Source: an uncultured Lachnospiraceae bacterium
GTDB taxonomy: Bacteria; Bacillota; Clostridia; Lachnospirales; Lachnospiraceae
Reading direction: 5' to 3'
NCBI GenBank assembly: GCA_947053345.1
Contig: CAMRSM010000017.1
Location: 24,001 to 88,000, forward strand
Length of the DNA: 64,000 nt
Both the position numbers and the translations under genes were made by a program. Below the pieces are notes generated by a model that was not told the DNA's origin, did no database searches, and worked only from the letters and a program-made list of their open reading frames with translations. How positions within the stretch are numbered: position 1 is the first letter of the stretch; each line of letters opens with the position of its first letter. Positions 3,343-41,833 of this stretch are shown here, piece by piece.

Positions 3343-4719
3343 CTAATCCACCGCATTCCCTTCCTGCCTGCGCAACTTTTCCATCGTCTCCCACACCACC
3401 CCAAGCAGCCGGAAATCCTCCGTGTCCTGCGAAAGTTCCCACAGCCCCGCACCGGCAAGCCCATAGCGCCCGATAAGCCCGCATTTTACCCGGATGGAAC
3501 GCTCGTCCTCATAGCTGATAAATTTCCCCTCCCCATCCAGATAGGGCGACTGTGCGGTCTCGTCCCAGCCCGCCGTATATGCGGGGTTACCGAGATATTT
3601 CTCAAAAACCGTGCGGCAGTCCACATAGGTTTCCTCCGTACTGCTCTTGTCGATGGCTTTTCCCGGTCCTACATTTCCCGCCTCCACGACCGGCATCACA
3701 TATCCGTAAAACGGCAGCCCAAGCACCAGCTGGTTTGCCGCAAGCCCTCCCCCCAGATAAGTCTTTACAATGGCATTGAGGGAATATACCCTGCCCGGCG
3801 CAGCACCGCTGTTGCCATAATCCCCGATCTCCTGTTCCCCCGGTGCGTACAGCGGCGCGTTAAAGCCCGCCGTCTCGTTCCACGGACCGTAAAGGTTATA
3901 ACCCATAATAAACACATAATCGAGGTAAGGTCCCACTGCGGCATAATCAATCCCCCTCAGCGTCCCCACATCCGCCGCGCCGGCAAGCGAAAGGCTGTAA
4001 TGTTTCCCCGTCCTCTCCCCAAGTGCATCCAGATGATAGCGCAGGCAGTATATCAGCCTTGTAAAACCCGCCGTTTCCTGTTCCGTCTGCGGAAATTCCC
4101 AATCCAGGTCAATACCGTCAAAATCGTATTCTTCCAAAAAGTCGGCACATCCCCCGGCAAAAACCGCAATCCCCTCATCCTGCGCGCACATCGGGGCGAA
4201 ATACCGGTCTCCTCCCGCACCGCCAACCGAGAGTACCAGTTTCAGACCGGGATTTTGCTGCCGCAGCCGGACGAGCGCACGCAGATTATCCTCGTGTGCC
4301 GCAATATCGTCCGCGAACGGCACGTAGTTCTCCGTCGTCTCAGCAAAAGCGTAATGGATATGGGTCAGCATGGACGCGTCAATTCCGTCCACCTGTAATT
4401 TACTGCTGTCATACTGCGCCCATGACGGATAATAAGCAATCACATACTCCCCGGCCTGCTTCGCAAAATATTCCTCCGCCACCGGGGTTGCCTGCACACT
4501 CGTGACATTCTGCGGTCCCGTGATGCTTTCCATCGCCACCTCCCACTCCCTGACACTATCTGCGGCTTTCTCCCCAAGCGCTGTCCCCTGCCGCAGGGCG
4601 GCCGCATTTTCCGCACCGGGCAACAGGGCAGGATCTTCGTTTCCTGCTTTGCCGCAGGAGGCAGTACAGGAAATAGCTGCCGCCAGTAAAACGGTCTTTC
4701 CTATCACACCTCGTCCCAT
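3343..4719 (-). CDS. GH18 glycoside hydrolase lipoprotein (chitinase-like)
   Basis: A 458-residue protein with a lipoprotein-type leader ending TASC near residue 22, followed by a GH18 TIM barrel. The catalytic signature DGIDLDWEFP carries the DxxDxDxE acid, and the upstream SVGGAGG strand is also typical. The family cleaves beta-1,4-N-acetylglucosamine links in chitin, chitooligosaccharides or peptidoglycan-like glycans through substrate-assisted catalysis. It ends 17 bp before the MATE gene region begins on the same strand. A second GH18 protein with a binding module lies at 41996-43624. Substrate is inferred only. Confidence 0.88.
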   Translation of the reverse strand: MGRGVIGKTVLLAAAISCTASCGKAGNEDPALLPGAENAAALRQGTALGEKAADSVREWEVAMESITGPQNVTSVQATPVAEEYFAKQAGEYVIAYYPSWAQYDSSKLQVDGIDASMLTHIHYAFAETTENYVPFADDIAAHEDNLRALVRLRQQNPGLKLVLSVGGAGGDRYFAPMCAQDEGIAVFAGGCADFLEEYDFDGIDLDWEFPQTEQETAGFTRLIYCLRYHLDALGERTGKHYSLSLAGAADVGTLRGIDYAAVGPYLDYVFIMGYNLYGPWNETAGFNAPLYAPGEQEIGDYGNSGAAPGRVYSLNAIVKTYLGGGLAANQLVLGLPFYGYVMPVVEAGNVGPGKAIDKSSTEETYVDCRTVFEKYLGNPAYTAGWDETAQSPYLDGEGKFISYEDERSIRVKCGLIGRYGLAGAGLWELSQDTEDFRLLGVVWETMEKLRRQEGNAVD

Positions 4720-18471: not shown

Positions 18472-18846
18472 TCACTCCTCATAATCGTCGATCATCTTCC
18501 GTATTTCATCCACCTGTTGCCTTGAGAGCTTTTTCCGGCTCATAAATGCCGCGATCATCTTCGGCAGGGAACCGCCGTAAGTTTCCTGCACAAATTGTTC
18601 CCCCATGCTCTGGTCATAGCTCTCACGGTCAATTCTGGCACTCACCCGAGAATCCTGATTCTCAAATAAACCCTGCCCGCAAAGTTTCTTCAGAAAGGTA
18701 TATGTCGTTGACTTTTTCCACCCGAAGCACTCCTCGCAGAGCTTTACCAATTCCCCCGAACTGATCGGCTCGTTCTCCCAGATCACATCGGCGAACTTGC
18801 GCTCTGCCTCCGTCATGCGATACCATTCCCTTTTCTCTTCCGCCAT
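18472..18846 (-). CDS. BlaI/MecI/CopY family repressor
   Basis: A 124-residue winged-helix protein. The ATG at 18846 follows AAAGGAG; 25 further codons are open upstream but lack a site. The domain reads MTEAERKFADVIWENEPISS, then GWKKSTTYTFLKKLCGQGLF, matching the BlaI DNA-binding region, with a helical dimerisation tail. In known systems the M56 sensor cleaves this repressor at the membrane. It lies 70 bp upstream of the M56 gene on the same strand. The TATAGC-like -10 is about 120 bp upstream, next to a large dyad. Confidence 0.88.
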   Translation of the reverse strand: MAEEKREWYRMTEAERKFADVIWENEPISSGELVKLCEECFGWKKSTTYTFLKKLCGQGLFENQDSRVSARIDRESYDQSMGEQFVQETYGGSLPKMIAAFMSRKKLSRQQVDEIRKMIDDYEE

Positions 18847-18992
18847 CCCGATGCTCCTTTCCCTGCAGTCCCAGCTTCTACCGGAAAACATTTCCCCACG
18901 ATTGAAAAACGCGTGTGGCACAAATGCCTCCGCCCCGGCTTTGACTGTATCTGCACAATCCTGCTATAGCACGTTTCATATTGTTTTCGAAA

Positions 18993-19052
18993 ACAAACAG
19001 GTCGGTAAATCATAGACCTTATAATAAGTCTATAACTTACCGACCTGTTTGT
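18993..19052. promoter_or_regulatory. Long two-tier dyad upstream of blaI
   Basis: Perfect 16-bp arms ACAAACAGGTCGGTAA (18993-19008) and TTACCGACCTGTTTGT (19037-19052) enclose a second inverted pair, ATAGAC and GTCTAT. On the minus strand the dyad abuts the predicted blaI -35 region and follows the DegV gene end. It may be the BlaI operator, the degV terminator, or both. Confidence 0.5.
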
Positions 19053-21919: not shown

Positions 21920-22025
21920 GTAATTCACCTCTTTTTCAATAATATGCTGTGCTCCATAAACCTTTGTATGCTCCAATCTGTTACCTTCTTTTGCCATTTT
22001 TATTTTACGCCGTTTCGACAAAATA

Positions 22026-22193
22026 ATCTATGCTGTTTCAGGAATATTGACAATATCTATGTCCATTCCTATCCGGTCGTCGTCCATTCATGCCATTTAA
22101 GTAAAACATTGGATACATCATTTTACTTTTATCGCCGGAAAAAGTCTATGCCGTTTGGGGAATAATTTTGGATATTCCTCAAACGGCATAGAC
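22026..22193. promoter_or_regulatory. Divergent control region with long dyad and extra half-site
   Basis: Arms 22144-22164 and 22173-22193 form a 21-bp inverted repeat with one mismatch; the arm begins GTCTATGCCGTTTG. A related copy, ATCTATGCTGTTTCAGGAAT, lies at 22026-22045 beside the XRE gene. A smaller dyad AAAGGTA/TACCTTT is at 22228-22243 near the peptide gene. The set suggests a DNA-binding site for a dimeric regulator. Confidence 0.55.
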
Positions 22194-22278
22194 GGAATTG
22201 GTCTTCCACTTTAAAATGCATACTTGTAAAGGTACTTACCTTTATACATACAAAATCATTATGAAAGAGGTGTCTGTT

Positions 22279-22443
22279 ATGAAAAAATTTAAAAAAGCAA
22301 TGCTCTCGGTACTCATCCTGTTCTATCTTGGCACTATGATCACCATCACGATTCCGGATGAGCCTTCGGTTCAGACGTGCAATGCTGACCCGGGGATGGT
22401 TCAGGTTGGGCCATTTGATGAAGGCGCAGGGGATGAGCATTAA
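22279..22443 (+). CDS. Putative secreted signalling pre-peptide (locus 1)
   Basis: A 54-residue gene starting at the ATG at 22279 after AGAGGTG. It begins MKKFKKAM, continues with a hydrophobic stretch (LSVLILFYLGTMITITI), then an acidic C-terminal part centred on QTCNADPGMVQVGPFDE. It runs convergently into the tandem-HTH regulator and overlaps its last 98 bp. The peptide at 39676 shares the layout and the KFKK, Cys-x-x-Asp and Pro-Phe positions. I infer an exported pheromone precursor. It could instead be a small membrane peptide. Confidence 0.6.
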   Translation: MKKFKKAMLSVLILFYLGTMITITIPDEPSVQTCNADPGMVQVGPFDEGAGDEH

Positions 22444-24274
22444 TATCCTCGCCAAACAATGATACATAGCTTTTTCCTACAATCTTAGCAGGTATTTCTT
22501 GCTTCATCAACAAACATATCTGATATGAATGCCAGAGGCAGGCTCGCTGTAACGCACTTTTTTCCGGTGACTCACTTTTATGATATACAAAGGCAAGGTT
22601 CGCTAAAATTTTTCCCGTTATCTTTCCTTTTCCACACCATATATCCATCCGGATACCCTTATGATCCATTTCTTCTGCCTGTTCAAGCTGTCCGTCTGTC
22701 TCTAGCATTTCTCCATAGCACATATAAAGTAGAAGAATTGAATTCGTATGGTATTCCACTTCAACGCGGCTATCCTTAAAGGTCTGCAACATGCGCTGAC
22801 GTAATTCCAAACCATCCTCCATTCTTCCAGCTTTTCTCATTAAACCTGCCATTAAATTTAATATAACAAACTCCTCTCGCGACGGTATACGCATTTTACC
22901 ATCCTCATAATCAGGCATAGTATAACGCAGAATCTTCTCCAGTTCTTTCAGCGCTTCCTCTGGATCAATTTTTCCACGAACTTTCTTATCACCAATCCTA
23001 CAAGTTTCTACATACTGCAAGTTCAATGGAATACTCATATCTAATGCCTCTTCCAGCCTATTGACGATTGCCTCTGCTTTATCACATTCACAGCCGAAAC
23101 TTGCCTGATTCCTCCAATGGCACAACTCATACAAATCATAATTCTCCGACTGTACCCTGCTGATGTAATAACTCTTATTCACACCAAGTTCTCTCGCAAT
23201 CCTCATAACACGCCTTTTTGACGGAGCTTGCTTCCCATTCTCAATCCTAGACAAATTTCCTTGTGTACAACTTTGTACATCACTCTGCGAGATTCCCTTA
23301 TTTCTTCGAATGTCACGAAGCATCTCATAATCCAACGATACTTCATCCTGATGGTAAAAATAATGCAACTTCGACAACTCATCCATCTCAAGCACCCAAG
23401 GCGCATAACAGCGCAGCACGGCTTTAAGGCTCTCAAGCTGATTCGAAAGAGCCGTCACCTCCTCTTCCGAACCCGCCGCAAGAACCTCCGCCTTGTTTAT
23501 GCTTTCAATCCGCAATTCCAACAATTCCGCAAGCAGGGGGATCGCACCGTTTTTCGTCAGGCATTCCACCCCTCGGCGGCTGTAATCCGCAACCCGGTTC
23601 CATTCCCCATCCCGCTTGCTTTTGAGGGCAAGCAGCCACATACATTGCGGGTAAAGTTTTACTTTTTCTTCCTCGTAATACTTCACTTCCAGATATTCCG
23701 CCACTTCCTCAAGGATCAGCTCGGACTTCTGCGGCTCTTCCGGCATCATAAAATATGCGATCAGGATCAACAAGTGGAGTTCCTGATTGCACAGCCAGTA
23801 ATCCATCAGCTTCAACTGCTCCCATGCCCAGAAGGTGATCGCCAATGTATCCTCCAGGGCTTTGCGGCAGCCGGCTGCATCTTTGTCTTTGCGGTACTGG
23901 CTCACGGCGCTGTATTTACAAAAAAATTGTCGGTGCAGCGGCTGCTCAAGCGCCCTATGTCTGGCATACTTCTCAAGCAGGATACAGTTGCGCTCATAAT
24001 TATTCTCATAAAAATGGCGCTGCAACGTTTCCCGCATGTCAAACAGGATGTACTCTTCCACCGACATGATCGCCTCAAGCGTATCCGTACACCTGCCCAG
24101 ACGCTGCATCAGGGCATCCGCCAGCATTTTTTCCGGCACCCTCTCACCGCTCTCAATTTTTGTCAGCTCACCCTGTGTGCAAATCCCCCGGTACAGTTCA
24201 TCCTGTGTCAGCCCTCTGCGCAGGCGCTCCAGATAAATGATCTTCCCTAAATTTGTCGCACGTTCATCCCACAT
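22346..24274 (-). CDS. Tandem-HTH (XRE) regulator with helical repeat body, locus 1
   Basis: A 642-residue cytosolic protein. The first XRE domain is near residues 8-50 (LRRGLTQDELYRGICTQGEL, then TKIESGERVP). A second complete XRE-like domain is near 310-360 (IRRNKGISQSDVQSC, then GNLSRIENGKQAP). Both are followed by helix pairs rich in Leu, Tyr and Glu, resembling the TPR bodies of RRNPP peptide receptors. The ATG follows CAGGAGG. The C-terminal 33 residues are encoded antisense to the peptide gene. A paralogue with the same order is at 39827-41833. The ligand is inferred to be the overlapping peptide. Confidence 0.8.
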   Translation of the reverse strand: MWDERATNLGKIIYLERLRRGLTQDELYRGICTQGELTKIESGERVPEKMLADALMQRLGRCTDTLEAIMSVEEYILFDMRETLQRHFYENNYERNCILLEKYARHRALEQPLHRQFFCKYSAVSQYRKDKDAAGCRKALEDTLAITFWAWEQLKLMDYWLCNQELHLLILIAYFMMPEEPQKSELILEEVAEYLEVKYYEEEKVKLYPQCMWLLALKSKRDGEWNRVADYSRRGVECLTKNGAIPLLAELLELRIESINKAEVLAAGSEEEVTALSNQLESLKAVLRCYAPWVLEMDELSKLHYFYHQDEVSLDYEMLRDIRRNKGISQSDVQSCTQGNLSRIENGKQAPSKRRVMRIARELGVNKSYYISRVQSENYDLYELCHWRNQASFGCECDKAEAIVNRLEEALDMSIPLNLQYVETCRIGDKKVRGKIDPEEALKELEKILRYTMPDYEDGKMRIPSREEFVILNLMAGLMRKAGRMEDGLELRQRMLQTFKDSRVEVEYHTNSILLLYMCYGEMLETDGQLEQAEEMDHKGIRMDIWCGKGKITGKILANLAFVYHKSESPEKSALQRACLWHSYQICLLMKQEIPAKIVGKSYVSLFGEDINAHPLRLHQMAQPEPSPGQHCTSEPKAHPES

Positions 24275-36117: not shown

Positions 36118-37713
36118 TCACGCTTTCCTTTCGCCCTTCAATTCCAGACGCTTATTGCAAATTTCCAAAATTGCGGGTTGATGCGTAACTACAATCAAAA
36201 TCCCGTTTTCCTTTGCGACAAATTCATCAATCAGGTGAATCATTCTCTGCTCCATTTGCATATCCACTTCCGCAGTCGGTTCATCTAAAATCAGCACATT
36301 TTCAAAATTATACAATGCCCTTGAAAGTCCCACCCTCTTTCTTTCCCCGCCGGATAATTCTGAAATTTCTCTGCCCAAAAAACCATCCAGTTCCATTGTA
36401 TCCTGGATTTCCCTCATATTCTTCCCGTCTTTTTCCCTGCCGAAAACAATATTCTCCATTACAGAATCCTCATATAAAAAAATGCTTTGTGGAAGTACGG
36501 ATAAGTGTTCCAGATACGAATCAAGCAATTCATACCCCAACGTTTCTTTATTCACCAACACCTTTCCCTCTGATGGTTTCAGCTGCCCAAGCAAAAGTTT
36601 CAGGCAGGTACTTTTCCCCGCACCGGATGATCCTGTGATTGCAAGGCGGTCTCCTTTTTCCAATGAAAAATTTATCTTTTCCACTCCCATGCCATTTTCA
36701 TAAAAAAATGAAACATCCTTAAATTCTAACGTTTGAATATCGGACAGTTTTCTTCCTTCTTTCTTTACCGGCTCCGCCGCCAGCAAAATCTCCAGACGTT
36801 CTTCCATTGCTTTCCCATTCTGTACTGCAATATTAAAATCGGTCAGATTCCTAATCGGCTCACTGATATATCTCGTATATGTAAAAATCGAAAAAATTGC
36901 CCCAAACGTACATTCCCCCACTGAAACAAAATAGATGCCAAGGATAATTGCAACCACGGGCAGTAAACCTGTAAGCATCGAGACGAACGACTGTGCAAGC
37001 GATTGCCAGTTACGCATTCCAACGCTTGACTGATAACGTTTCATTGCACATTGTTCAAATTTCATTTCAAAAAAAGCTTCTCTGCGAAATAATTTTATCG
37101 TCGGAATCCCTTCATAAAATCTTGTCGTTTTATGTAACAGTTCCGATGTGTCCTGCCCCGAACGTTTTGCATGCTCCCGCATCTTTTTATTCATAACACG
37201 GTAAGAAATAAAATATAGGATGCTGATGAACAGCAAGGCCAGCGATATATATATCTGGAAGCCTCCAATAATTACAAAAACAACTGCAAGCGTTGTCACA
37301 TTCAACAAAAGCATCGGAATGCTGATCAATACCTTCTCAACATACACTGCGCTGTCGTTCAAAAGCCTGTTTACAATATCCCCGCCCTGCGTCTTTGTAA
37401 TATATTCCACATCCTGTTTCATCACTTCCGAAAACAAACGCACTCTCAGCAGATAGATCCCCCTGAATATCATCTTAAACCATAAAAAATTTTGCATCCA
37501 ATTAATCATGGCATCCATTACAAGCAAGAATAAAACCAAGCACGATAATGTTACCACGATCTCTTTGGACGAATCTGCATTATCTAAAAGTTCCCCCAGA
37601 AAATACGGGCTCAGCATCCCAAATATACTGGAGAACAAACAAGCCCCTACCGCGACGATACGCAAAGACTTCATCGGTTTTAATGCTTCTTTAGTTATTT
37701 TTGATATCCTCAT
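36118..37713 (-). CDS. ABC exporter (fused TMD-NBD) of the RiPP operon
   Basis: A 531-residue half-transporter. Six helices in about 1-300 are followed by an ATPase domain: Walker A GSSGAGKST, signature LSGGERKR and Walker B VLILDEP. No C39 peptidase domain precedes the membrane part, so it cannot itself cut a double-glycine leader. It overlaps the PqqD-like gene by 23 bp and is the last gene of the RiPP operon. It most likely exports the modified peptide or confers self-immunity. Base use is visibly AT-rich against its neighbours. Confidence 0.88.
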   Translation of the reverse strand: MRISKITKEALKPMKSLRIVAVGACLFSSIFGMLSPYFLGELLDNADSSKEIVVTLSCLVLFLLVMDAMINWMQNFLWFKMIFRGIYLLRVRLFSEVMKQDVEYITKTQGGDIVNRLLNDSAVYVEKVLISIPMLLLNVTTLAVVFVIIGGFQIYISLALLFISILYFISYRVMNKKMREHAKRSGQDTSELLHKTTRFYEGIPTIKLFRREAFFEMKFEQCAMKRYQSSVGMRNWQSLAQSFVSMLTGLLPVVAIILGIYFVSVGECTFGAIFSIFTYTRYISEPIRNLTDFNIAVQNGKAMEERLEILLAAEPVKKEGRKLSDIQTLEFKDVSFFYENGMGVEKINFSLEKGDRLAITGSSGAGKSTCLKLLLGQLKPSEGKVLVNKETLGYELLDSYLEHLSVLPQSIFLYEDSVMENIVFGREKDGKNMREIQDTMELDGFLGREISELSGGERKRVGLSRALYNFENVLILDEPTAEVDMQMEQRMIHLIDEFVAKENGILIVVTHQPAILEICNKRLELKGERKA

Positions 37714-37951
37714 ACAGAAATCCTTTCTCCTTTAGACAATCCAAAAACTTATGTAACGATGCCTCGGATACGTTCATGTCCTTTGCAAAATTTTCAAGCT
37801 GCTCTCCTGTCGGAAATTTATTCATAATATATTTTACAATTTTGTATGATCCTTCATCCAATGCTATACAAGTTCCCTTCAAAGAATTAAATATCAATGT
37901 ACGATTTTTTCTTTGTGCGGTACGTAAATATTTTTCCATCCTATAATTCAT
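37691..37951 (-). CDS. PqqD-like RiPP recognition element protein
   Basis: An 86-residue protein whose fold pattern matches PqqD: a strand pair (RTLIFNSLKGTCIALDEGSY), then helices (IVKYIMNKFPTGEQLENFAK) and a winged C-terminal part. Such proteins bind the leader of a precursor and hand it to the radical-SAM enzyme. The ATG overlaps the radical-SAM stop by 11 bp and has GAGGTGG upstream, implying translational coupling. Confidence 0.75.
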   Translation of the reverse strand: MNYRMEKYLRTAQRKNRTLIFNSLKGTCIALDEGSYKIVKYIMNKFPTGEQLENFAKDMNVSEASLHKFLDCLKEKGFLYEDIKNN

Positions 37952-39017
37952 TTCCGTCCACCTCTTTCATCATATTATGAAGCAAGTTGCAATTATGCAT
38001 TACAGCATCCACATCTGCTTCCCGCGATAAATGACACGGAAAACACACATCGCCCAAATATTTGCATCCATTGCAAGGGAACAACTTTCTATACAATTCA
38101 TCTCCATAATAGCGTGAAAAAGGAAGTTTGAAATCCTCACTTTCCCATACACTGAAAAAATCCTCATCCAACAGGCTATATTGCCGATTGCAATACTTTC
38201 TACTGCGATCACAGGGATATACATTTCCCTTATTATCCAAAAATAAAGTAGTAGCGCCTGCCCCGCAACCATGAATCACGAGCGGGAATTTTAGATGCAG
38301 GCATTTTTCTATATAGTCTTTCACAAGCGGCCTGCAAAACTTAGGGACAATCTCCAACCCGTCGCATCCCAGGGTGAATCGTTTTGCAACTGTTGTTATA
38401 GCTTCCATAAACATTTCATCTGTCAAAGAATAGTTTTTTCCCACACCGTTTCCATCCTCAATAAATTCAAGCAATTGAAGAGAATCCACATCTTCTCTGA
38501 CGCATAAATCTATTATGTCTCCAATCGTGCCATAATTCATAGATGTAACAACTGTATTAACTACAATTTTTATTTTGCAATCCGGATTTTCTCGTTTATA
38601 AGCAGAAATCATCCGGATTCTTTTCATTATCACATTAAAAATATTCCTTCCGCGAATGGCATCGTTTACTTCTGCGGTTGGTCCCTCTAAGCTTACAACG
38701 ATGTTTGTCAAACAATTCAGGCTTGCTAAGTATTCAAAATTTTTCTCATTCAGCAACAATCCGTTCGTGTTAAATCCAAATTGGATACCTTGCGTTTCTA
38801 AATATTTAAAAAAAGGAAGAATATCCGGATGTGTCAATGGCTCTCCTCCCAAAAAATGAATATATCCAACAGGAATATTATCATTTATTTTGTTAATAAC
38901 TTTTACCATATCCTCATAAACAATTTCATTGTCTTTGTTTGTTAAATAATTGCCATTGATACAATGGCCGCACATTAAATTGCATTTATATGTAACATCC
39001 CACTTTATTGAAACCAT
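37941..39017 (-). CDS. Radical SAM/SPASM peptide-modifying enzyme
   Basis: A 358-residue enzyme. The [4Fe-4S]-SAM motif is CNLMCGHC (C12, C16, C19), in KWDVTYKCNLMCGHCINGNY. The C-terminal SPASM region has HGCGAGATTLFLDNKG then VYPCD, and later FPCNGCKYLGDVCFPC, providing ligands for auxiliary clusters. These enzymes crosslink RiPP precursors, for instance forming thioether bonds from cysteine. The ATG follows AAAGGAG. It lies 193 bp after a two-cysteine precursor and is followed by an RRE protein and exporter. Confidence 0.88.
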   Translation of the reverse strand: MVSIKWDVTYKCNLMCGHCINGNYLTNKDNEIVYEDMVKVINKINDNIPVGYIHFLGGEPLTHPDILPFFKYLETQGIQFGFNTNGLLLNEKNFEYLASLNCLTNIVVSLEGPTAEVNDAIRGRNIFNVIMKRIRMISAYKRENPDCKIKIVVNTVVTSMNYGTIGDIIDLCVREDVDSLQLLEFIEDGNGVGKNYSLTDEMFMEAITTVAKRFTLGCDGLEIVPKFCRPLVKDYIEKCLHLKFPLVIHGCGAGATTLFLDNKGNVYPCDRSRKYCNRQYSLLDEDFFSVWESEDFKLPFSRYYGDELYRKLFPCNGCKYLGDVCFPCHLSREADVDAVMHNCNLLHNMMKEVDGNEL

Positions 39018-39117
39018 TATTTTCTCCTTTAGATTTGTCGAATATCAATATATTATAATCAATTCTACTTTAATAACGAATTCCATAAATCACAAACCTC
39101 TATATTTTCCTGTGTAA

Positions 39118-39197
39118 GTGTCGCACAGGCAAATATATGCAAAACAAAACCTTTATAAAACCTTTTTATGTTTTACAATTTTTGCTTTGTACGACAC
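39118..39197 (-). terminator. Possible attenuating hairpin between precursor and radical-SAM genes
   Basis: GTGTCGCACAGGCAAA (39118-39133) pairs imperfectly with TTTGCTTTGTACGACAC (39181-39197) across an AT-rich loop. It lies directly downstream of the precursor gene, where partial terminators often favour precursor over enzyme. Stability was not computed. Confidence 0.35.
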
Positions 39198-39210
39198 CAA
39201 CACCTTTCCA

Positions 39211-39321
39211 TTAACCCAAAGGCTTAGGGCATGCATTTGATCCGCCGCCACATGCATTATCTCCTGCCGCTGCGTGTACATCGATTTCCTCAAATTCAAG
39301 TTCCTTCTTCTGGTTTTCCAT
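39211..39321 (-). CDS. RiPP precursor peptide (two-cysteine, GGG core)
   Basis: A 36-residue gene from the ATG at 39321 to TAA at 39211, with GGGAGGGAAG upstream. The N-terminal leader is acidic and polar (MENQKKELEFEEIDVHAAAG). The C-terminal core ends DNACGGGSNACPKPLG, with cysteines at 24 and 31. The likely product is a radical-SAM-modified RiPP, perhaps sactipeptide-like. The GGG motif recalls streptosactin precursors, but that is analogy only. It is first in the operon with the radical-SAM, RRE and exporter genes. Confidence 0.8.
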   Translation of the reverse strand: MENQKKELEFEEIDVHAAAGDNACGGGSNACPKPLG

Positions 39322-39364
39322 CACATCTTCCCTCCCTTCCTACGATAGTACAAATCATCTCGTC

Positions 39365-39518
39365 TTGTATAAATACAATACCCAGCAGATTCTCCATCGT
39401 TTATTTAGTTTCCGAAAACTATCTTTATCATACTTCCATTCTATATTTTTTTAAAGTAGGAAAATCGGTAAACCTTTCCTTCATCCCCATCTTTGTTTAC
39501 CGATTTTCCTACTTTAAA
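39365..39518. promoter_or_regulatory. Divergent control region with 24-bp perfect dyad
   Basis: Between the RiPP precursor (minus) and the peptide gene (plus), arms 39450-39473 and 39495-39518 are perfectly complementary over 24 bp, with a 21-nt loop; the arm begins TTTAAAGTAGGAAAATCGG. Smaller dyads are TTGTAT/ATACAA (39365-39378) and TAGTTT/AAACTA (39406-39421). The long dyad parallels that of locus 1 but differs in sequence. No T-run marks it as a terminator. Confidence 0.55.
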
Positions 39519-39675
39519 CTTACCCCGAACAGTGTTATTCTTTAATTCATAGAATTCAATTCTTCTAAGCTTTCAAAAAATGCATATTGAGCGAACCGAT
39601 GTAAGGCCATACAATAAGAAGCATCCAACTGTGCGCTGGCTTTACATCCCCTGCCAAGGAAAGGGGGGCATATCC

Positions 39676-40044
39676 ATGAGCCGAAAATTCAAAAAAGTAA
39701 CCACTGCATTTCTAACATGCCTAACTGCACTGTTTTTTTTTGTATATCCGATTAAGCTGCCAGAAAAACCTATGGAACCAGGAATCCATGTATGCAGCGG
39801 CGACGATGATCCGGTTGAAATACCTTTTAATCCTTGGCCTCCAAAGCCACACGAATTTTATTTACCGCCAATACTTCATCATAAAATTGCTCTCCTGTAC
39901 GGTTCTGACAGAAGCGGCTCAAAGCAAGGCAGCACTCCAAATCTTTTCTCCAGTCATAACTTGCTTTTTGGGGTTCCGCTTCCTTCTTCTGAATTTTTAC
40001 ATTGCTGCGCATCCATATATACAGCGCCCCATCCAATATATTGA
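39676..40044 (+). CDS. Putative secreted signalling pre-peptide (locus 2)
   Basis: A 122-codon frame from the ATG at 39676 after AAGGGGGG. It begins MSRKFKKVTTAF, then a hydrophobic segment (LTCLTALFFFVYPIKLP). A Cys-Asp stretch follows (HVCSGDDDPVEIPFNPWPPK). The part after about residue 50 lies antisense to the last 218 bp of the regulator gene and may not be functional sequence. Residues 1-50 align by eye with the 54-residue peptide at 22279. Inferred role: pheromone for the convergent tandem-HTH regulator, controlling the RiPP operon. Confidence 0.55.
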   Translation: MSRKFKKVTTAFLTCLTALFFFVYPIKLPEKPMEPGIHVCSGDDDPVEIPFNPWPPKPHEFYLPPILHHKIALLYGSDRSGSKQGSTPNLFSSHNLLFGVPLPSSEFLHCCASIYTAPHPIY

Positions 40045-41833
40045 TCCGCCCTGTACGCAGGCACAGCCGAATTACCTTTTTTGCATACTGTTTCGCCGCC
40101 TCATATTCCCCTATTTCACATAACAAAACTGCCTTATACCCCATATACAACTCATAGGTGCGTATATGTCTCTTTTGTATTCCCTCTGCCTCAAGTTCTT
40201 CCTCCTGACGGAACACAACCTTCATCCGCTCATATGCTTCCTTTGCATTCTTACGACAAACCAACAGGGAATAATGATAAATGCATTCCATCTCCGAATT
40301 CGTAAGATAACATTCCTTTTCATCCGGGTACTCCAGGATTGACATCGGAAGCGTGCATTCCAGTGCCTGCTTCACCATCTCCTCATATTCCGTATCATCC
40401 ATCAACCCCAGTTCATGCCTCGCCATTCCCTCTGTACGCAGCACCCATTGCCGGTTCATCCGGTTCGTCATATCAATCATGCCTTTCAGTTCTTCTAATT
40501 GCTCCAGATTCTTCTGAAATCTTCCGTCGTTTGCCGCATACCGGATCTCCTTTTCCAATTCACGCGCTTTCGGATTTGCCGTCACCAATTCCGTCCGGCT
40601 GCGCAACGGCGGCAGTCCGAGCACTGCACACATTTCCTGCAAATAAAAAGATGACGTACCATGTCTCTTCTTCTCCAGATCACGCAACGTATCTAGGTTG
40701 CAGCCAACCCTTTCGCATAATTCCTTCTGCGTCATTTTTAACATTTTCCTGCGTGTGCGGATAATATCTCCCGCATTACGCCTTTCCTGCCCGTAATATA
40801 AGTACGCATCCGATAATTGCCCTTGTTCCACCCCAAAGCGCCCACACAAATCGCTGAATATTTCGATCCATTTTTCGTTTTCAGCCAGCATTCCTTGAAA
40901 GGCCTCTTTCCCACCCATGTTCTTTGCATTCAATTCTTCCAGCTGCTTTATCGCTATCTTTTTTGCCTCCAACAATTCCAGCAAATAGTATTTTCTTTTT
41001 ACCTTCCTTAACAGCCCAATCCCCAAGTCACACAGCTGAATGATTTCTGCGTATTCTCCTGCCTCTTTCCTTTCCTTTTTTTGCAAAGTCTGACACAGAA
41101 GAAGAAGTACTTTCGGGTAATTTAATACCTTCACGTCATCCTCCATCGGGGTATTTTCCAGATATCCCTTAACTGCCATATACTGTCTTTGTGCGCCGGC
41201 CAGCGGAAAGCATCCCGCATACTCCAGGATTAAATTGATCTCCCTCGCACTAAGTATCCGATCCTGCAACAGTTCACAGTCAATTTCCGGCATGCTCTGG
41301 CGTAGTGCAGCCCGAAAAATCCCCATCCGTTCTTCACTCCTGCCCCCTGCAAGCTTCCGGCACATTCCAAGCATTCCAAGATAGAACTGCCGCCGCAGCC
41401 GCGTTGTCACACTCTCCTTCGCATTTTCCTCCATGTCATATGCGTTTTGCCGAAAATCCAAGCCGACAAACAACACTTTCTCCAAGCCATACCTGTCTGC
41501 ATATCTCTCCAGTGCTGCCTCCATTTGGTTTCTATCGCACATATCCAGATAATCCAGGATTTCCCCCTGCATTCTCCACTCTGCATAATCCTCATTATCC
41601 AAATAATTCTCGTACGCTTCATCCGCTACCCTCCCGCGTTGTAAAAGGGATTCCTGTAGCAGCCATCCTGCGCCCCTGTTTCCGCTCTCTATGTGGCTTA
41701 TCATGCTTTTCGCACATAGTCCCTCTATAAGCTGCCCCGATGTAAGCCCCAAATATTCACGGTTTGCTTTTATATAGCTGCCATCATTTCTTTCAAATGA
41801 AGCCCTGTTTTTTTCTGTTTCTTCTTTCCCCAC
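39827..41833 (-). CDS. Tandem-HTH (XRE) regulator with helical repeat body, locus 2
   Basis: A 668-residue paralogue of the protein at 22346-24274. The first HTH-like domain is near residues 20-55 (REYLGLTSGQLIEGLCAKSM, then ISHIESGNRG). The second is near 360-405 (RRKMLKMTQKELCERVGCNL, then DTLRDLEKKRHG). The bulk is amphipathic helices. It starts with a GTG at 41833 after GAGAGGGG. It follows the terminator of the GH18 gene region and ends inside the convergent peptide gene. Inferred function: peptide-responsive control of the divergent RiPP operon. Confidence 0.78.
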   Translation of the reverse strand: MGKEETEKNRASFERNDGSYIKANREYLGLTSGQLIEGLCAKSMISHIESGNRGAGWLLQESLLQRGRVADEAYENYLDNEDYAEWRMQGEILDYLDMCDRNQMEAALERYADRYGLEKVLFVGLDFRQNAYDMEENAKESVTTRLRRQFYLGMLGMCRKLAGGRSEERMGIFRAALRQSMPEIDCELLQDRILSAREINLILEYAGCFPLAGAQRQYMAVKGYLENTPMEDDVKVLNYPKVLLLLCQTLQKKERKEAGEYAEIIQLCDLGIGLLRKVKRKYYLLELLEAKKIAIKQLEELNAKNMGGKEAFQGMLAENEKWIEIFSDLCGRFGVEQGQLSDAYLYYGQERRNAGDIIRTRRKMLKMTQKELCERVGCNLDTLRDLEKKRHGTSSFYLQEMCAVLGLPPLRSRTELVTANPKARELEKEIRYAANDGRFQKNLEQLEELKGMIDMTNRMNRQWVLRTEGMARHELGLMDDTEYEEMVKQALECTLPMSILEYPDEKECYLTNSEMECIYHYSLLVCRKNAKEAYERMKVVFRQEEELEAEGIQKRHIRTYELYMGYKAVLLCEIGEYEAAKQYAKKVIRLCLRTGRINILDGALYIWMRSNVKIQKKEAEPQKASYDWRKDLECCLALSRFCQNRTGEQFYDEVLAVNKIRVALEAKD

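Follow-up and report, generated by a model that had tools for sequence, protein, structure and literature searches.

We report an operon for a ribosomally synthesized and post-translationally modified peptide (RiPP) that is probably controlled by its own peptide-pheromone circuit, with a receptor made of two fused RRNPP-type units and a predicted product of the thioether type. The operon lies in a 64,000-nt stretch of DNA from an uncultured Lachnospiraceae bacterium (the window), in an island at positions 36118–41833, and all results given here come from sequence, structure models and counts. In the direction of transcription, the minus strand encodes a 668-aa regulator (39827–41833), a 37-aa RiPP precursor (39211–39324), a radical S-adenosylmethionine (SAM) enzyme (37941–39017), an 86-aa RiPP recognition element (RRE) protein (37691–37951) and a 531-aa ATP-binding cassette (ABC) exporter (36118–37713). 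A plus-strand signal-peptide gene of 122 codons (39676–40044) diverges from the RiPP operon and converges with the regulator gene, 218 nt being common to both. A preliminary description of this DNA had named a two-cysteine precursor, a SPASM radical SAM enzyme, a PqqD-like protein and an exporter, with a divergent signal-peptide gene running into a tandem helix-turn-helix (HTH) regulator, and the analysis confirms these genes in that arrangement.

By sequence and by structure model, the regulator is a tandem duplication of an RRNPP (PlcR/Rgg-like) unit. Its halves, at approximately residues 15–332 and 350–667, are homologous to each other (hhalign E 6.3e-27), and both have the architecture that defines RRNPP(A) receptors, an HTH followed by a helical domain resembling tetratricopeptide repeats (TPR), with PlcR as the match in sequence and fold. 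The C-terminal half matches PlcR at E 1.6e-9 in a profile search, its HTH (residues 358–409; 40607–40762, minus strand) is recognized by HTH_3 (E 9e-8) and HTH_31 (E 2.5e-8), and PlcR is also the best solved match to the regulator model (pLDDT 88.5, pTM 0.89). No match to the Rgg family (TIGR01716) was found up to E 1 in an NCBIfam scan. The protein had earlier been called a different, larger double-HTH regulator; larger and double it is, but it represents a duplicated form of the RRNPP type rather than a different kind. Known RRNPP(A) receptors consist of one unit, and RRNPP_detector accepts 250–500 aa (excerpts of PMC10075063), a range that the two-unit, 668-aa regulator exceeds and within which its split and single relatives of 300–350 aa fall. 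A search at E 1e-12 finds relatives, whether fused, split or single, in 31 of 196 genomes from this order, and the source genome alone has at least eight regulators of the family, six of them with a recognizable peptide gene.

The signal-peptide gene, which likely encodes a propheromone, has a ribosome-binding site, a basic n-region and a hydrophobic core, and a small gene with an export signal adjoining the receptor gene is a feature of RRNPP(A) pairs. Such a partner recurs throughout the family. Our filter called for a start 60–320 nt downstream of the regulator, a reading direction towards it, and the same three features. In the first set, on which the filter was tuned, a convergent signal-peptide gene accompanies 21 of 25 regulators and none of 152 other genes. 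These counts exclude the 5′ halves of six split regulators and those other genes that lie too near a contig end (152 of 162 tested), and L094, where the contig ends, was retained as a miss. With the filter frozen, a second set, drawn from further genomes in the order and including two more regulators of the source genome, gave 23 of 44 distinct regulators versus none of 54 other genes. This set omits two edge cases and two 5′ halves, and a regulator present both as L129 and as a row of L158 (a miss in each) is counted once, which reduces 45 rows to 44; L125 is the doubtful one among the 23 positives. The proportion of nonsynonymous differences is lower than that of synonymous ones (pN < pS) in all nine alignable peptide pairs, a comparison in which synonymous sites are mostly saturated and the window peptide is not included.

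Could the exported peptide be an output of the regulator, that is, a secreted effector or a bacteriocin-like or surface peptide, with the regulator sensing something else? No mature pheromone is known, the peptide tails, at ~25–45 aa, exceed the 5–10 aa of classical pheromones, and 20 of 38 tails contain a cysteine. We nevertheless regard this explanation as unlikely, given that receptors of this type sense peptides and that a constant partnership of neighbors is a trait of RRNPP pairs. The tails, acidic in 33 of the 38, also vary between paralogues while retaining short cores, PGI in six and SI.P in eight (shuffled means 0.65 and 0.76, respectively; patterns picked by eye), and EPGI..CS is common to the window peptide and the peptides of L091 and L147. 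At 39827–40044 the window peptide frame extends much deeper into the regulator gene than the frames of other pairs do, and nothing in the aligned peptides corresponds to its extra C-terminal part.

Between the peptide gene and the precursor gene lies an inverted repeat (39450–39518) of two perfect 24-bp arms separated by a 21-nt spacer, which likely serves as a bidirectional operator for both divergent promoters. A promoter-like site of the RiPP operon (39427–39455, minus strand) has TTTAAA at one arm end and, after 17 nt, TATGAT, a consensus match only (9/12), and its mirror image for the peptide gene (39513–39541, plus strand) has TTTAAA at the other arm end, 17 nt and TATTCT (8/12). This second site falls under the threshold of our promoter scan, which offers another candidate for the peptide gene at 39587–39615 and finds no overall excess of promoter-like sites in the window (19 versus 16.0 expected). 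No further copy of the 24-bp inverted repeat is present in the 4.13-Mb genome with up to three mismatches. Across the family, 25 of 40 pairs have an inverted repeat with a score of at least 13 upstream of their peptide gene, versus 7 of 151 other upstream regions; the 40 were drawn from 44 peptides, omitting L089 (31 nt upstream), L125, L025 (masked) and the second L014 pair. In two of the seven control positives (L154 and L097), the local palindrome recurs ahead of a different gene, as expected from a small regulon. Among the 25 pairs with such a repeat plus L011, the interval 18–23 nt outside the arm contains a −10-like hexamer in 22 of 26 cases towards the target gene (single-base shuffles average 7.5 and reach at most 15) and in 16 of 26 towards the peptide gene (average 7.2, at most 16); this interval was picked after inspection of the profile. 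Over 15–23 nt, the counts are 25 of 26 and 20 of 26, respectively. The −35 elements are poor, and we therefore favor activation over repression; the regulator probably raises transcription.

The same repeats might instead be terminators or RNA structures, with the overlapping convergent transcripts regulating one another as antisense RNAs. They do lie downstream of the regulator gene, and the 218-nt convergent overlap would yield antisense RNA. The window repeat, however, is AT-rich, its spacer is 21 nt long and the window scan does not list it as a terminator-like site, and spacers elsewhere range from 0 to 26 nt. Arm sequence is, moreover, common to paralogous loci (TTTGACAACTCTG in L086 and L088, with a near form in L087), arms recur before other genes, −10 elements flank the repeats, and the genes hardly overlap in most other pairs, all of which make this account very improbable.

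The pairing of this regulator type with a RiPP operon is not confined to the window. Ten other radical SAM loci have enough upstream DNA for comparison (L008–L011, L012/L109, L013–L015, L025 and L110; L007, with 178 nt upstream, is not counted), and in three of them the regulator type is directly upstream on the same strand: L011, from a Eubacteriales metagenome-assembled genome (MAG), L014, from a Lachnospiraceae MAG, and L025, from Butyrivibrio fibrisolvens 16/4. The preliminary description had held that its proposal would fall if homologous operons never adjoined such a regulator, and it survives this check. A convergent signal-peptide gene is present in L014 and L025 and absent from L011, and a palindrome precedes the precursor in L014 and L011, the corresponding DNA of L025 being masked. 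Split regulators with a convergent peptide also occur beside a different radical SAM RiPP set in G173, a genome of the same genus (L090:143–6992; G173:C32), which comprises an enzyme at 3485–2181, a 52-aa precursor candidate at 2124–1966 and an exporter at 1819–143; the enzyme is closest to PapB, below the cut-off for that family (170.9 of 340 bits).

One may ask whether the circuit is real and the RiPP operon merely its neighbor. Most regulators have other neighbors (in L091, L095 and L101, for example, S8 subtilases), and seven of the ten related RiPP loci are without the regulator. Against this, three independent upstream placements in ten have a rough chance of 8e-6 (assuming eight members among 4,000 genes), and the palindrome stands before the precursor, with a −10 element on the precursor side, in the window, L014 and L011. 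We judge coincidence to be quite improbable. The regulator family is not, on the other hand, dedicated to RiPPs, since G173 also has a regulator 43% identical to that of the window with its own peptide (L085) and no window-type radical SAM gene at E 1e-40. The S8 subtilases lie on the target side of the peptide gene (L091:9223–11475, L095:7892–9631 and L101:3761–6121). Such variety among target-side genes indicates that the circuit is general and that the RiPP is one of its outputs.

In the circuit that we favor, the plus-strand propeptide would be exported via its signal peptide and then trimmed, and a fragment would be re-imported by an oligopeptide permease to bind the regulator at its TPR-like halves. 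With two HTHs in each chain, the regulator would in turn bind the long inverted repeat and change, probably raise, transcription from both divergent promoters, which would complete an autoinduction loop and switch the operon on. The RRE protein would guide the enzyme, the cysteine of each NxC would be joined by a thioether, perhaps to the asparagine two residues before it, and the finished peptide would leave the cell through the ABC protein. Sequence and counts show the gene order, the duplication within the regulator, and the recurrence of the convergent peptide gene, of the palindrome with −10 elements at its flanks and of the regulator beside related RiPP operons; pheromone identity, the direction of control and the chemistry are what we infer, as are the binding of peptide to regulator and the role of the palindrome as its site. 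Several points weigh against this picture. No peptide gene passes the filter at 4 of the 25 regulators in the first set and at 21 of the 44 in the second, among them the RiPP-linked L011 and two regulators of the source genome, C47 (L100) and C19 (L098); the palindrome is missing from 15 of 40 pairs; and the seven regulator-free RiPP loci and the post hoc choice of the 18–23-nt interval count on the same side. The window peptide also overlaps its regulator gene for longer than other peptides do and stands outside the pN/pS comparison.

The precursor, enzyme and exporter together form the single operon expected of a radical SAM (RaS)-RiPP system. The precursor core, ...GDNACGGGSNACPKPLG, contains two NxC motifs, and the core of L010 (SNACGGGSNAC) is close to it. 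Across the seven precursors found (window, L008, L010, L011, L013, L014 and L015), an asparagine stands at −2 of all 14 cysteines and also at −3 in five of the 14. This pattern resembles the NxxC motif, in which the asparagine is at −3, a position held by D and S in the window precursor, with N at −2 of both its cysteines. By analogy, we would guess at Asn–Cys thioethers spanning one intervening residue, one per NxC, with a loss of 2 Da each. The radical SAM enzyme (PF04055) has SPASM-like C-terminal cysteines that, together with the N-terminal CxxxCxxC-type residues C12, C16 and C19, are conserved in 25 relatives, and the 37691–37951 protein has a PqqD-type winged fold, as placed beside RiPP maturases, by model and fold search. 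The exporter has membrane and ATPase domains (PF00664 and PF00005), with no peptidase domain among its Pfam matches. The enzyme is rare: at E 1e-40 it occurs only in the source genome among 397 of the family, and at E 1e-80 in two others of 392 genomes in the order and in no further genome among 391 in the class. Strong hairpins separate the precursor and radical SAM genes in L014 (8905–8996, z −6.1) and L011 (8940–9000, z −3.7) and are absent from that position in the window. Related radical SAM enzymes in L109:7152–9483 and L110:449–3233 are found with Gly-rich precursor-like proteins of 113–162 aa and without the regulator; by eye, the genes for these proteins adjoin glycine hydroxymethyltransferase-like genes.

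Clusters of RaS-RiPPs controlled by Rgg and a short hydrophobic peptide (SHP) are known from streptococci (excerpts of PMC13361665), and the likeness to their logic that had been proposed holds, with a peptide gene and an HTH–TPR-type regulator beside genes for a precursor, a radical SAM enzyme, an RRE and a transporter. The window locus works like such a system but is not one by its regulator, having neither Rgg (TIGR01716) nor SHP. In place of an Rgg of one unit paired with a short hydrophobic SHP (same excerpts), it has a fused double receptor, a long paired-arm palindrome and a longer exported propeptide, of a mostly acidic type and convergent with the receptor gene, which by length and tail is not the SHP-type signal that had been suggested. 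A rumen survey used PF04055 plus TIGR01716 as its antiSMASH rule for RaS-RiPPs (excerpts of PMC13289728), a rule that would miss the window locus because the regulator has no TIGR01716 match up to E 1. With PlcR–PapR and other RRNPP(A) pairs (excerpts of PMC10075063 and PMC9765709), the window pair shares the HTH plus TPR-like fold, an adjacent exported propeptide and local targets. The main text of PMC10075063 gives no Lachnospiraceae families among the 196 linked gene clusters of RRNPP_detector, neither that text nor the main text of PMC12700828, nor the PMC9765709 listing, has a match to the Lachnospiraceae terms searched, and "fusion" likewise has no match in PMC9765709. In a Streptococcus orisratti NxxC ranthipeptide, a β-thioether links Cys23 to Asn20 (excerpts of PMC8326336). 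There, as here, a radical SAM enzyme goes with an Asn/Cys core; the window chemistry is predicted from genes, and the asparagine is two rather than three residues before every cysteine.

More broadly, we see an even chance that a distinct branch of intracellular receptors for pheromones extends across the Lachnospirales, in which two units, fused or encoded by adjacent genes, read long asymmetric arms of ~16–28 bp, inverted and variably spaced, and fire two divergent promoters simultaneously, one for a tail-to-tail pheromone gene and one for a local output (NxC thioether RiPPs, another radical SAM RiPP or secreted subtilases). A fused receptor would be a natural pseudo-dimer, each half free to acquire ligand and DNA preferences of its own. 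Lachnospiraceae are major gut bacteria, and the literature searched, in which subscription papers are largely not covered, yielded no RRNPP-type pheromone system from them. If the circuit is as proposed, gut-type bacteria would use a little-studied form of cell-to-cell signaling to control RiPP-type products, the source genome has at least eight receptors of this kind, sequence alone suffices to propose signals and operators, and synthetic peptides might induce silent RiPP operons.

A second complete set of the same family occupies 22026–24274 of the window. It consists of a 642-aa double-HTH regulator (22346–24274, minus strand), a convergent signal-peptide gene of 54 codons (22279–22443, plus strand) and, upstream of the latter, an inverted repeat with 21-bp arms and one mismatch (22144–22193). 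A third arm (22026–22046, three mismatches) is just upstream of an HTH gene at 22021–21494, again as expected from a small regulon. Separately, an inverted repeat not tied to the regulator family (~18998–19052; 25-nt arms, two mismatches) lies upstream of a small winged-helix gene (18472–18921) that by eye is BlaI/MecI-like.

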